DNA from: Bacillota bacterium
Lineage (GTDB): Bacteria > Bacillota > Sulfobacillia > JAJZYS01 > JAJZLH01
Direction of reading: 5' to 3'
Length of the DNA: 64,000 nt
Assembly (NCBI GenBank): GCA_021850485.1
Contig: JAJZLY010000008.1
Span: 85,879-149,878 of the forward strand
Each line of letters begins with the position of its first letter. Within the stretch, counting starts at the first letter, position 1. The notes under the pieces are model-generated. The model did no database searches. It was not told where the DNA came from and saw only the letters and a list, made by a program, of their open reading frames with translations. The position numbers and the translations under genes were made by a program. This document shows, piece by piece, positions 37,686 through 44,397 of this stretch.

Positions 37686-38239
37686 GTCAACTCCCGGGGC
37701 CGCTCGTGGGCAGCGCGGTCACCGCCGATCAGCTTTGGCCGTGCGAAGGCGGCGGTCAACACCGCTACCCCTACCGTCTTCTGAGCCAGGCGCACCGGCG
37801 TTGCCACCGGGCGGATGTGCATGCCGACCAGTGTTTGTCCGATGTCCAGGCCGCCGTCGGCGCAAACGGCTTCCACCAGCTGCCGGCCGGGGTCGAACAA
37901 CATGGCGGCACAGGCCACGGCACCACCGGCTCCGGGCAGCGGAAAGGCATGCACCTGGGTCAGGGCGGCCGCCTGCACCCGTCCGGCGGTCACCACCAGG
38001 GCGCGATTTAAGTGTTCGCAGCACTGGTACGCCAGCTCTATGCCGCTCTTGGCCGCCCCCTCTTCCAGCGCCGAGACCAATTCCTTGCCTAGCTCCAGAG
38101 ATGAGGCGGTGCCGATCGGCTGGCCCGCCACTTCCGAGGTGGAGCAGCCAACCACCACCAGTGCCCCAGGCTCCAATCCGGCCGCCTGCACCAGTTGCGC
38201 CAGCGCCTCCTTGGCCTGCTGGCCCACGCTCACGGCCAC
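37679..38239 (-). CDS. ywlG: YwlG/UPF0340 family protein
   Basis: 186 residues of the UPF0340 (TIGR01440, DUF436) family. Signatures are VVVGCSTSEVAGQPIGTASSLE, AYQCCEHLNRALVV and GMHIRPVATPVRL. The fold is an alpha/beta phosphotransferase-like unit; no biochemical function is established. Its place between rpiB and comEB is conserved in Bacillota. It overlaps both neighbours by 7-10 bases. Confidence 0.9.
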   Translation of the reverse strand: MAVSVGQQAKEALAQLVQAAGLEPGALVVVGCSTSEVAGQPIGTASSLELGKELVSALEEGAAKSGIELAYQCCEHLNRALVVTAGRVQAAALTQVHAFPLPGAGGAVACAAMLFDPGRQLVEAVCADGGLDIGQTLVGMHIRPVATPVRLAQKTVGVAVLTAAFARPKLIGGDRAAHERPRELTW

Positions 38240-39105
38240 TTATGCCCTTCCAGGGCACCGATCTCGGCGATGCGTCTAGCGTGACGGCCGCCTTCAAACT
38301 CTGTGTGCAAGAACTCACGCAGAGCGTCTTCTGCGACCACCGGGCCGATCAACCGCTCGCCAAAGCAGATCACATTGGCGTTGTTGTGCGCCCGGGCCAG
38401 ATGCGCCGAACTGACGTCAAAGACTACGGCGGCGCGCACGCCGGGCAGTTTGTTGGCGGCGATCGACATGCCGATGCCGGTGCCGCAGACCAAGAGGCCG
38501 ACCTGGGCACGACCTTGTCCGACCAGCGCAGCCACCACTTCAGCGAAGTTCGGATAGTCCACCGAAGTGGCGTCATGGGTGCCGACGTCCAGCACGGGGG
38601 TCGGCAGCTGCGCCAACAGGCGGTCTTTCATCTGGTAGCCGGCGTGGTCGGCTCCGGCGACAGCCTGGTAGCGGGGTCCCACCTGCTGCGTGGCAAGGCC
38701 GCTGTCGATCAGTTTGGAGATGTGCGTCATGGTGGCCTGATAGACCCGGTCGCTGGAGCCAATCGGATCCTCGACGTCCTCGCCGCTACCAGCCCATTCG
38801 CCCAGCGTCCGGACCCAGTCCTTGGCCCAAGGATAGCGCCGGATCAACTCTAGCTTTTGGCCGCGGGTCATGGCCAGCACCCAGTCCGCCCACACCATCC
38901 GCTCTACCGACGGCTCTTGGCTCGCATGTTCTGGCACGGCCAGGCCTGCCCCGGCCAGTGCCCGCCGGGCTCCCTCTGAGATGGCGGAACCAGCAGTGGC
39001 GGCCACACCCGCCGAGTCTGCCTCCACCCCTGGGTGGGCCCCAGCCAACGCCTCCGCCATCGGGCTGCGGCAGATGTTGCCGGTACAGACGAACAGTAGT
39101 CGCAC
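38230..39105 (-). CDS. Fusion of low-molecular-weight protein phosphatase and ribose-5-phosphate isomerase B
   Basis: One 291-residue frame joins two proteins that are separate neighbours (ywlE, rpiB) in Bacillus. Residues 1-140: LMW phosphatase with the P-loop VCTGNICRSPMAEAL (C7, R13) and the general-acid loop EDVEDPIG. Residues 147-291: RpiB with AGADHAGYQMKDRLL, GLLVCGTGIGMSIAANK (catalytic Cys) and AHNNANVICFGERLIG. Residue 11 of the P-loop is Ile, as in tyrosine phosphatases, whereas the arginine phosphatase YwlE has Thr there. The linker is about 10 residues. No stop or frameshift separates the halves. Confidence 0.93.
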   Translation of the reverse strand: MRLLFVCTGNICRSPMAEALAGAHPGVEADSAGVAATAGSAISEGARRALAGAGLAVPEHASQEPSVERMVWADWVLAMTRGQKLELIRRYPWAKDWVRTLGEWAGSGEDVEDPIGSSDRVYQATMTHISKLIDSGLATQQVGPRYQAVAGADHAGYQMKDRLLAQLPTPVLDVGTHDATSVDYPNFAEVVAALVGQGRAQVGLLVCGTGIGMSIAANKLPGVRAAVVFDVSSAHLARAHNNANVICFGERLIGPVVAEDALREFLHTEFEGGRHARRIAEIGALEGHKWP

Positions 39106-39107
39106 GG

Positions 39108-40106
39108 TCAGTCCCCCTTACCCAGATCCACTGATGGCAGCTGGCCGGCGATGCGAAAGACGCCGCCAGCCGCCCGCCACAGTCGGTCGCGAATGGCGTG
39201 TCCGATGCCCTCAGCTGGCGGTGCGGCAACCACCAAGACGGTCGCCTTGGTCTCTAATTCTCGCATCGCCGCGAACAGCCCTGTCGCCATCGCCGCGCTG
39301 CTGGCAAAGCACCGTCCTGGCCACTTGGTCGGGCGTCGGTCGCCTACCCACACCAGCGCCGGCACCTCGCCCGCTTGCGCCAAGACCAGGGCCCACTCGT
39401 CGATCACCTGGGCCGCCGACTGATTCGGCCCGTCTACCAGCACCACCACCGGTATCGCCGGGCGGTAGTGCCGATAGCGGGTGCCAGGCGATGGCGCATG
39501 GCTGTCGCCAGCAGCGGTGGCCAACACCCCATATGCGGCCAGCGCCTCTGGCGAGATGGCGCCGGGGCGCAAGATCACCGGCACCTTCGCACTCAGGTCG
39601 ACCACGGTGGACTCCAGGCCAACCGTGGTCGGCCCCCCGTCCAAAATCAGCCCTACCAGCCCGGCCAGCTCGGCTGCGACATGTTGGGCGGTGGTGGGGC
39701 TCGGCCGGCCAGACAGGTTGGCCGATGGAGCGGCCAACGGCCGCTCACTTAGGGCGATCAACTGGCGGGCCACCGGATGGGCCGGCGCCCTCAAGGCGAT
39801 GGTGCCGCCGCCTTGGCGGGAGCGCACCACCAGAGTGATCGGCCCCGGCCAAAAGGCCTCGGCCAGCCGCTGGCCCAAGGGGCCCAGATCACCCAACGCA
39901 GACGCCTGCGCCGCATCCAGGACATGAACAATCAACGGGTTGTCAGCTGGCCGCCGCTTGACGGCGAAGATGCTGGTGCAGGCAGCCACGTCCAAGGCGT
40001 TGGCCGCCAGGCCGTAGACCGTCTCGGTCGGCATGCCAACCAGCCGTCCGGCCCGGATCAACCCGGCCGCCAGGGCCAGTGCCTGGGCGGTGGGAGCTGC
40101 CACCAC
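39108..40106 (-). CDS. ywlC: Threonylcarbamoyl-AMP synthase (Sua5/YwlC)
   Basis: About 332 residues. The N-terminal YrdC domain (PTETVYGLAANAL, IFAVKRRPADNPLIVHV, AFWPGPITLVVR, SANLSGRPSPTTAQHV) makes threonylcarbamoyl-AMP for the tRNA t6A modification. The C-terminal Sua5 domain follows the linker GTRYRHYRPAIPVVVL. A longer frame to 40325 reads into prmC and looks non-native (Gly/Arg/Pro rich). The GTG at 40106, five bases after the prmC stop, fits; the GTG at 40103 is an equal choice. Confidence 0.92.
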   Translation of the reverse strand: MVAAPTAQALALAAGLIRAGRLVGMPTETVYGLAANALDVAACTSIFAVKRRPADNPLIVHVLDAAQASALGDLGPLGQRLAEAFWPGPITLVVRSRQGGGTIALRAPAHPVARQLIALSERPLAAPSANLSGRPSPTTAQHVAAELAGLVGLILDGGPTTVGLESTVVDLSAKVPVILRPGAISPEALAAYGVLATAAGDSHAPSPGTRYRHYRPAIPVVVLVDGPNQSAAQVIDEWALVLAQAGEVPALVWVGDRRPTKWPGRCFASSAAMATGLFAAMRELETKATVLVVAAPPAEGIGHAIRDRLWRAAGGVFRIAGQLPSVDLGKGD

Positions 40107-40111
40107 TGACG

Positions 40112-40927
40112 CTAGGCGCTCTTGCGTAACACCACCACCCGCGGGTGGCCGGCCAAGTCGCTGTGCACGCTGGCCGTGGCCTGCAGCACAGCGGCCGCGA
40201 GGGCCGCCACCGCCTTGGCCTGACCCGCCCCCACCTCCAGCAGCAGCTGGCCGCCCGGTGCCAAGGTCTCCGCTGCCTGGGCGATCAGGCGCCGGAGATG
40301 GCTGAGTCCATCGGCTCCACTCCACACGGCGTCTGGCGGCTCACGGTGCACCTCTTGGTCGACGGCCTGACCCCGACCGACATATGGCAAATTGGCCACG
40401 ACCAAGGACATCTGCAGATGGCGCATGCGCACTGGGGTCAGCAGGTCCCCCCACCACCAGTGTACCGCCGGCGCCAGCCGCTCGCCGTTTTCGCGGGCGA
40501 TCTCCAGGGCTGGCCGCGACCGGTCGGTGCCGACCACCTGCCAATTCGGGTGCAGGCGGCTGAGTCCGATGGCCAATGCGCCCGAGCCAGTGCCCACGTC
40601 GACCGCCCACGCTCCTGGTTTCAGGACGATCTGCTCGCTCAGCTCCAAGAGCAGTTCGCTCTCCGGCCTCGGACACAGCACGCTCGGGCTAACCGTGAGT
40701 TCCATGTCCCAGAAGGCGGCCCGTCGGCGCAGGTAGGCCAGCGGCCAGCCTTGAGACCGGCGGCGGATCAACTGGCGGCAGAGCTGGACTTGGGGCCAGG
40801 TCAGTACTCGCTGGCGATCGCGACTCGGCCCGAAGCCGGCCTCGGCCAAGACGTGGCCGACAATCAGGCGGGCGTCGCGCACCGCCACCCGGTGACTGGC
40901 CTCTGCGATCATCGCCTGACTGGTCAC
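40112..40927 (-). CDS. prmC: Release factor glutamine methyltransferase PrmC
   Basis: 271 residues. PrmC methylates the Gln of the GGQ loop in RF1 and RF2. An N-terminal helical domain is followed by the SAM-binding Rossmann fold ([18 protein letters not shown]) and the target-binding motif, here [13 protein letters not shown] instead of the usual NPPY, a variant known in some lineages. It lies right after prfA with a 4-base overlap, the usual operon partner. The prior of function from context is strong. Confidence 0.93.
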
Positions 40928-42348: not shown

Positions 42349-43278
42349 CTAGGCTTGTGTCGATGGGTAGCGGGAGTGGATGCGGCGTACGGTTTGGGCG
42401 TTGCCGTCGATCACCAGTGAGTGCACCCAGATCGACTGCCCGACCACCGTGGGCCGGTCCAGCTGCCAGCCGCCGGTCACGGAGGTGGCGCAAAAGACGC
42501 CGTGCCTGCTGACCACGTCCTTGACGGCGAGCACCCGACCGGGCTTGAGCCCCAGGCTGGCCATCGCCGCCAGGTCGTCTTTGCCTTCGGGCAGCAGCCG
42601 CCCCTCAAAGACACCACCCAGGGCGGCGATGGCGACCGCTGCCAGCACGCCCTCGGGGGCGCCGCCCGAGCCCAGCACCAAGTCGACGTCGCTGCCGTCA
42701 ATCGCCGCCAGCACCGACGGCATCACATCTCCGTCTGAGATCAAGCGCAGTCTGGCCCCGGCCCGCAGCACGCCCTCCATCAGGCTCAGGTGGCGGTCGC
42801 GATCGAGCATCACCACCACCACCTGCGACACGTCCTTGCCCAGGCCGCGGGCGACCTCGGCCACCATCTCCTCCACCGGCTGGTCGAGGGACAGGCGGCC
42901 GCGGCAGGCAGGCGGCCCAGCCAGTCGCTGCATCATCATGTCAGGCGCCTCGAGCAGGCTCTGCGGCGGGCCGGCGGCAATCACACAGACTGCTCCGGGC
43001 TGGTTTTTGGCTGTGAGGTTGGTGCCCTCCAGGGGGTCGACGGCGATATCCATCCGCCGCCTGCCCCGGCCCACTTCCTCACCCCGATAAAGCATCGGCG
43101 CTTCGTCCATCTCGCCCTCGCCGATCACCACCCGGCCCCGGATCGGAGCCTTGCCTAGCACTTGGCGCAGTGTGCTGACGGCGGCTTGGTCGGCTGCCAC
43201 CTTGTCCCGCTTGCCGACCAGCGGCCAGACCGCGATCGCCGCCTGCTCGGTGGCTGCCAGCAGATCCTCGGCGATCAT
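42349..43278 (-). CDS. glpX: Class II fructose-1,6-bisphosphatase GlpX
   Basis: 309 residues. Metal and substrate motifs: VVIGEGEMDEAPML, DIAVDPLEGTNLTAKNQPGA, and DLVLGSGGAPEGVLAA. It turns fructose-1,6-bisphosphate into fructose-6-phosphate in gluconeogenesis, which fits with yvcK elsewhere in the window and with the transaldolase and rpiB domain nearby. Its ATG overlaps the tal stop (ATGA). In Bacillus glpX also lies near rho-rpmE. Confidence 0.95.
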   Translation of the reverse strand: MIAEDLLAATEQAAIAVWPLVGKRDKVAADQAAVSTLRQVLGKAPIRGRVVIGEGEMDEAPMLYRGEEVGRGRRRMDIAVDPLEGTNLTAKNQPGAVCVIAAGPPQSLLEAPDMMMQRLAGPPACRGRLSLDQPVEEMVAEVARGLGKDVSQVVVVMLDRDRHLSLMEGVLRAGARLRLISDGDVMPSVLAAIDGSDVDLVLGSGGAPEGVLAAVAIAALGGVFEGRLLPEGKDDLAAMASLGLKPGRVLAVKDVVSRHGVFCATSVTGGWQLDRPTVVGQSIWVHSLVIDGNAQTVRRIHSRYPSTQA

Positions 43279-43937
43279 GTCTGCGGGTTGGCCTGCTTCC
43301 AGTCGGAGAGAAACTTCTCGATGCCGGCATCGGTCAGCGGGTGGCGAAACAGCTGCTTGAGCACGGAAAACGGGCAGGTGGCGATGTCGGAACCGGCCAG
43401 GGCTGCCCGTTCGATGTGCACCGGATGGCGGATGGAGGCGGCGATGATCTCAGCCCGCCGCTGCTCTGGCATGAAGCTGTAGTCAAACACATCGCGGATG
43501 GTTTGGACCAACTGGATGCCGTCTTGGCCGATGTCGTCCAGGCGGCCGACAAACGGCGACACGTAGCGGGCCCCGGCCAACGACGCCATCAGGGCCTGGT
43601 TGGCCGTGAAGATCAAGGTGACGTTGGTGTCGATGCCAAGCGCGGTCAAGGCGGCGCAGGCCGCCAACCCTGCTGGCGTGATCGGCAATTTGACCACCAC
43701 ATTCTCGTCCAGGTCAGCGAGTCTCTTGCCCTGTTCCACCATCGCCGGCGCCTCGGTGGCGGTCACCTCGGCCGAGACCGGCGCTTGCACCACCTGGCAG
43801 ATGTCGCGCACCCGTTGGTGAAAGTCTGCTCCCTCTTTGGCCACCAGGCTGGGGTTGGTGGTGACGCCGGAGATGATGCCCCAGGAATGGGCCTCTCGAA
43901 TTTCGTCCAAGTTGGCCGAGTCGATGAACAACCGCAT
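43275..43937 (-). CDS. tal: Transaldolase, short (TalC/fructose-6-phosphate aldolase-like) type
   Basis: 220 residues, a single TIM barrel. Signatures are MRLFIDSANLDEIREA, GVTTNPSLVAKEG, VVVKLPITPAGLAA (Schiff-base Lys) and ARYVSPFVGRLDDIG. It belongs to the compact transaldolase group (Bacillus YwjH) of the pentose phosphate pathway. The ATG at 43937 is chosen with AAGGG upstream; a reading to 43982 adds a non-conserved stretch. It is co-translated with glpX. Confidence 0.94.
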   Translation of the reverse strand: MRLFIDSANLDEIREAHSWGIISGVTTNPSLVAKEGADFHQRVRDICQVVQAPVSAEVTATEAPAMVEQGKRLADLDENVVVKLPITPAGLAACAALTALGIDTNVTLIFTANQALMASLAGARYVSPFVGRLDDIGQDGIQLVQTIRDVFDYSFMPEQRRAEIIAASIRHPVHIERAALAGSDIATCPFSVLKQLFRHPLTDAGIEKFLSDWKQANPQT

Positions 43938-43941
43938 GCGC

Positions 43942-44397
43942 TCACCCTTCCTTTCCGGGATCTGCGATCGGGTCGGAATCAACCATCCGGCGGCCCCTTT
44001 GGCCAGCCCCCAAACTGCCGCCGACCAGGCCGACCACGCCGGCGAACAATGCGGTCAGCAGCACCGCGAGCAAGACCGCTGTCAGCTTCGCCCCACCGCT
44101 GAGCAGAATCCTGGTCGGGGCGATCACGTAGAGTTCAGGAACGGCCGTCAGCAGTGCGAAGAAAGCTCCGGCGAGCACACCGGCCAGGGCGCCCCACACC
44201 GCCGACCCACTTTGGCGGCCAAGTCGCCAGCCGAGCCAGCCGAAGACCGCCAGTCCCGCCAGCGGCTGTGCGGCGCTGAGCACGCCGACCCAGTTGCCGG
44301 GGAAGGCCGAAGTCAATAGGGTGAGTGCCCATGATGCCATGGCCAGCAGCAGGCCAGTGAACAGAGCGATCCGAACCACCAGTCGCAAGCCTGCCAT
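43942..44397 (-). CDS. Four-helix membrane protein of unknown function
   Basis: Up to 151 residues with four hydrophobic segments (about 5-30, 36-56, 66-86 and 102-128) and a basic, hydrophilic C-terminus. No motif was recognised. AAGGAG abuts the ATG at 44397 with no spacer, so initiation three codons later at TTG (44388) is equally likely. It is the first gene of the leftward tal-glpX run and is divergent from murJ, 94 bases away. Confidence 0.6.
   Translation of the reverse strand: MAGLRLVVRIALFTGLLLAMASWALTLLTSAFPGNWVGVLSAAQPLAGLAVFGWLGWRLGRQSGSAVWGALAGVLAGAFFALLTAVPELYVIAPTRILLSGGAKLTAVLLAVLLTALFAGVVGLVGGSLGAGQRGRRMVDSDPIADPGKEG

Follow-up and report, generated by a model that had tools for sequence, protein, structure and literature searches.

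A gene joining a low-molecular-weight phosphatase to ribose-5-phosphate isomerase B in a conserved operon, and its unusual P-loop residue

The fused gene and its surroundings

Within the window, the 64,000-nucleotide stretch of DNA analysed here, one uninterrupted open reading frame on the minus strand (38230–39105) starts with GTG and encodes 291 amino acids, with no stop codon between an N-terminal low-molecular-weight (LMW) phosphatase half and a C-terminal ribose-5-phosphate isomerase B (RpiB) half. Both halves give Pfam matches above the curated cut-offs, which bears out the original prediction of a single-frame fusion, made without mention of strand. The phosphatase domain (residues 1–132, 38710–39105, minus strand) matches PF01451 LMWPc over residues 4–132 (3.7e-22; 79.5 bits against a cut-off of 23.2) and has the two hallmarks of the LMW-PTP family, a CX5R P-loop (C7-T-G-N-I-C-R13, 39067–39087, minus strand) and a general acid, placed by alignment at Asp113 in a DPIG motif (38767–38769, minus strand). 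The fifth P-loop position (PX5) is Ile11, encoded by ATC (39073–39075, minus strand); other readable members of the class have Thr here and the genus has Ile or Val. The RpiB domain (residues 149–291, 38233–38661, minus strand) matches LacAB_rpiB over residues 151–282 (1.5e-49), and the fusion protein scores 146.9 bits against the cut-off of 138.65 for the equivalog-level model TIGR01120 rpiB. In alignment it keeps D153-H154-A-G (residues 153–156), C207-G-T-G and H240, so that this half qualifies as RpiB by both score and motifs. With C7, R13 and D113 present as well, the expectation that both catalytic sets would be intact was correct.

Residues 133–148 (38662–38709, minus strand) form a linker of about 10–16 residues, close to the roughly ten first proposed; it is the fastest-changing part of the protein and the least conserved segment among three congeners. 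An AlphaFold2 model built from a five-row alignment has two domains joined by a linker of low confidence (mean pLDDT 79, pTM 0.53; pLDDT below 50 at residues 145–154), and its best Foldseek matches are YwlE (4PIC) and RpiB (3HE8). A Shine-Dalgarno-like sequence, AAGGGGGA, lies upstream of the GTG start (39112–39119, minus strand). In none of the genus's three genomes did we find an internal start with a Shine-Dalgarno sequence ahead of the RpiB half; therefore both enzymes are taken to be physically joined throughout the genus, where the fusion is, as read from the sequence, obligate. Some other fusions keep a Shine-Dalgarno sequence and start codon directly before RpiB (L014, 1339–2481; L098, 922–1974; L156 and L162) and may also produce free RpiB.

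Immediately upstream is the gene for Sua5, L-threonylcarbamoyladenylate synthase (39108–40325, minus strand; TIGR00057 above cut-off), whose stop lies 2 nt upstream of the start of the fusion. Downstream, a gene identified by profile matches as DUF436/TIGR01440 (37679–38239, minus strand) shares 10 nt with the end of the fusion. The order around the fusion, sua5 - phosphatase - rpiB - DUF436, is one known from Bacillus. Two further sugar-phosphate genes had been said to lie nearby: upstream of the fusion, glpX is indeed found at 42349–43278, and the gene called tal is present at 43275–43982 but belongs to the fsa/talC family.

The fused RpiB is the single RpiB copy in the window genome (a 1.61-Mb assembly, 97% complete) and the only ribose-5-phosphate isomerase found there. 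Because a search for RpiA in all three genomes of the genus (G000–G002, assemblies 96–97% complete) found none, this one RpiB must, by prediction, work as an isomerase. Elsewhere in the same order, genome G003 (L024/L140, 877–1707) has a phosphatase fused to an RpiB-like pseudo-isomerase without DHAG and CGTG. The phosphatase half of that protein is intact and RpiA is present in the genome; the RpiB-like half may have a structural role or be decaying, as seen in the one genome of its family that was examined.

Fusions across the class and beyond

In a search of 145 class genomes, the regions surrounding the matches were extracted and their open frames classified with profiles of Sua5, the phosphatase, RpiB and DUF436; fusions are thus called from open frames, and the genomes are drafts. 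A phosphatase-RpiB fusion is seen at 23 of the 118 class loci having both domains and a Sua5-phosphatase fusion at 28 of the 118. One or the other phosphatase junction is fused at 51 of these loci and both at none (Fisher p = 0.0018, uncorrected for kinship), nor did any of the 165 loci examined in all hold a double Sua5-phosphatase-RpiB fusion. RpiB is fused to DUF436 at two of 64 loci with DUF436 in reach. Every junction of the operon is therefore seen fused somewhere, and Verrucomicrobiota add an arrangement in which serine hydroxymethyltransferase (SHMT) follows phosphatase and RpiB. The two RpiB-DUF436 fusions (L087, 1642–2946, minus strand; L126, 1378–2721) stand beside a Sua5-phosphatase fusion, so that four genes have become two.

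Outside the class, named genomes were chosen by similarity and form a biased sample, among which phosphatase-RpiB fusions occur in Verrucomicrobiota, a Thermoanaerobacter metagenome-assembled genome (MAG) and other Bacillota, and Sua5-phosphatase fusions in Planctomycetota. The two genes are separate in Bacillus, Paenibacillus and Macrococcus; the separate but adjacent ywlE and rpiB attributed to Bacillus were seen at L153 and L173. The Verrucomicrobiota proteins have three domains, LMW phosphatase, RpiB and SHMT, in about 730–760 amino acids, with Val or Ile at PX5 (L155, 2887–5160; L158, 2995–5172).

A quick tree of the 165 loci, with many open branches, requires at least 13 state changes for the phosphatase-RpiB fusion and at least 14 for the Sua5-phosphatase fusion, part of which may be losses. 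The fusions of the window lineage cluster in this tree with those of families f3 and f4 of the order (SH-aLRT 93) and are therefore considered old and inherited. Among split phosphatase and RpiB pairs of the class, 15 have exactly one in-frame stop between the genes, which would offer a one-step route to fusion. Both states occur in genus g31, where G040 is fused, whereas G062, with one in-frame stop, and G063 are split.

Fusions of this kind were already in the databases, as shown by PDB entry 4EGS (released 2012), which is titled as LMW-PTP from T. tengcongensis with its molecule named 'Ribose 5-phosphate isomerase RpiB', and by the full fusion in the MAG of Thermoanaerobacter sp. Bu09 (L152), whose phosphatase half scores 237 bits against 4EGS. 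The 4EGS domain was evidently excised from a phosphatase-RpiB fusion product; its P-loop, CTGNTCRS, has Thr at PX5, whereas the window protein has Ile. No paper discussing the phosphatase-RpiB fusion was found in the literature searched. Geobacillus YwlE (4PIC) is the closest solved phosphatase to the window's phosphatase half (3e-25). Like the arginine phosphatase YwlE of B. subtilis (4KK3, 1ZGG), it shares with the window protein the LMW-PTP fold, the CX5R motif, the Asp and the operon position between sua5 and rpiB, but both YwlE proteins are encoded by separate genes and have Thr11 in place of Ile11. The RpiB half resembles RpiB of Clostridium thermocellum (3HE8) and E. coli (2VVR) in its above-cut-off TIGR01120 score and catalytic motifs and differs in bearing an N-terminal phosphatase domain. 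The Verrucomicrobiota fusions share with the window protein the order of the first two domains, the Val or Ile at PX5 and the DPI motif, but their third domain is GlyA/SHMT and their evolutionary origin is separate. The Sua5-LMW phosphatase fusions (Planctomycetota L166 and many class members) involve the same phosphatase in the same operon, joined to its upstream rather than its downstream neighbour. What is new here is the genus-specific Ile or Val at PX5 alongside a retained arginine kinase, McsB.

Origin and meaning of the fusion

We consider it probable that the bifunctional protein arose when two neighbouring genes, translated together from a conserved operon, merged, and that it reflects gene order and co-expression rather than a sugar-phosphate signal. 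Two neighbours in the co-translated sua5 - phosphatase - rpiB - DUF436 operon, lying close together or overlapping, would have merged when the stop codon separating them was lost; this probably happened a single time, in a common ancestor of families f1, f3 and f4. Judging from known RpiB structures, the RpiB half would dimerise as RpiB usually does, with active sites to which both subunits contribute, and this dimer would carry two phosphatase domains at its N termini, placing phosphatase and isomerase side by side without allosteric cross-talk. The fusion partner seems to be set by operon position and not by pathway. Since this phosphatase is found joined to an enzyme of tRNA modification no less readily than to one of the pentose phosphate pathway, the two activities probably just share one chain.

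The original prediction had read the fusion as coupling protein dephosphorylation to the pentose phosphate pathway. The physical joining of the two enzymes stands, but a specific coupling is unsupported because Sua5 fusions (28) rival RpiB fusions (23) and because RpiB itself also joins DUF436 or SHMT. A single fusion is thus poor ground for inferring pathway coupling when the same domain joins either neighbour, and never both. One could still propose that ribose-5-phosphate binding or the state of RpiB regulates the phosphatase, or the reverse, and that the fusion was selected for this. The repeated origin of phosphatase-RpiB fusions, including in Verrucomicrobiota and several Bacillota clades, is consistent with such regulation, but Sua5, which is fused equally often, is unconnected with the pentose phosphate pathway, the linkers of the fusions are unconserved, with lengths between about 17 and 100 residues, and the frame of G003 is still fused even though DHAG and CGTG are gone from its RpiB half. 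We therefore regard functional coupling as unlikely.

Gene order may nevertheless not be the whole explanation, as fusion is much commoner at the phosphatase junctions (51 of 118 class loci) than at the RpiB-DUF436 junction (2 of 64), and the phosphatase may gain from tethering. RpiB could, for example, be a scaffold for oligomerisation through which the phosphatase is dimerised or localised, in which case tethering and not sugar sensing would have been selected. Such a role would fit both this disparity and the RpiA-containing G003, where an RpiB-like half without catalytic motifs is still fused. However, only one genome of the G003 family was examined and its RpiB-like half is possibly just decaying, and the RpiB of the window genus has intact catalytic motifs and is the sole isomerase found. 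A scaffold is in our judgement no more probable than functional coupling, and the merger of neighbouring co-translated genes remains our preferred reading.

Both halves are under purifying selection, with within-genus dN/dS among the three congeners of about 0.19–0.28 for the phosphatase half and 0.13–0.15 for the RpiB half. The faster evolution of the phosphatase half, together with its altered PX5 residue, might suggest that it is degenerate and that RpiB alone is working, but none of its catalytic residues (Cys, Arg, Asp) is lost in any of the three genomes of the genus, and its dN/dS, at about 0.2, is well below 1, which makes degeneration very improbable. A sequencing or assembly error that deleted a stop has a negligible probability and is ruled out, because the same fused frame occurs in both other genomes of the genus (82 and 77% identity) and in further independent genomes of the order. 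The fusion recurs across the genus and in most genomes of the order, and the genes are split in other families of the class.

The P-loop residue and phosphoarginine

Merger of this phosphatase with whichever gene adjoins it has happened many times in bacteria, so that the fusion is mostly ordinary and its odd part is the P-loop residue. According to PMC8001253, the fifth P-loop position sets the specificity of LMW phosphatases, with Thr conferring activity on phosphoarginine (YwlE, S. aureus PtpB) and Ile on phosphotyrosine, a rule demonstrated by a T-to-I exchange (Fuhrmann 2013, as cited there). Among the class loci whose P-loop could be read (113), 110 have Thr at PX5. Only the three species of the window's genus differ: G000 and G002 have an ATC codon (Ile) and G001 has GTC (Val). 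The fused phosphatases of this genus therefore have the gene neighbourhood of a YwlE-type enzyme (sua5 - phosphatase - rpiB - DUF436, together with McsB in the genome) and lack its Thr. Because the residue that determines phosphoarginine specificity is Ile here, YwlE is doubtful as a functional name for the phosphatase half, as is the identity implied by the original prediction. The altered residue predicts weaker phosphoarginine activity and higher activity of the aryl or phosphotyrosine type.

McsB is present in G000–G002 with its core motifs kept, and no other YwlE-type phosphatase was found in the window genome. A second LMWPc match in that genome was considered as a Thr-type phosphatase and rejected, being ArsC-like instead (CTGNACRSQMAE; 171 bits against the TIGR02691 cut-off of 174.3). 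Assignment of the fused enzyme as a phosphotyrosine-specific LMW-PTP with a cognate BY-type tyrosine kinase (CpsD/eps) was likewise rejected, as all TIGR01007 matches in G000–G002 (assemblies 96–97% complete) fall below the cut-off. We tentatively raise the possibility, which we think somewhat doubtful, that the fused phosphatase of this genus is no longer an arginine phosphatase, even though McsB is kept and another YwlE-type gene was not found. If so, the phosphoarginine mark would lack its usual eraser and would either lead only to degradation or be removed by some different kind of enzyme.

The fusions of Verrucomicrobiota likewise have Ile or Val at PX5, with DPI after it, and eight of the nine fusion-bearing genomes tested in that phylum encode McsB. 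This shared change in phosphatase-RpiB-SHMT proteins, with McsB kept in most, suggests convergence. A changed P-loop residue beside a retained McsB opens to experiment the question of how phosphoarginine signalling is switched off in bacteria. The phosphoarginine receptor site of McsB consists of R337, D338 and R341 (eLife 63505). In McsB of the genus (L132, L133 and L134), Phe replaces Asp338 of this site, so that RDxxRA becomes RFQLRA, and the site is also altered in McsB of family f4 (L137 and L138).
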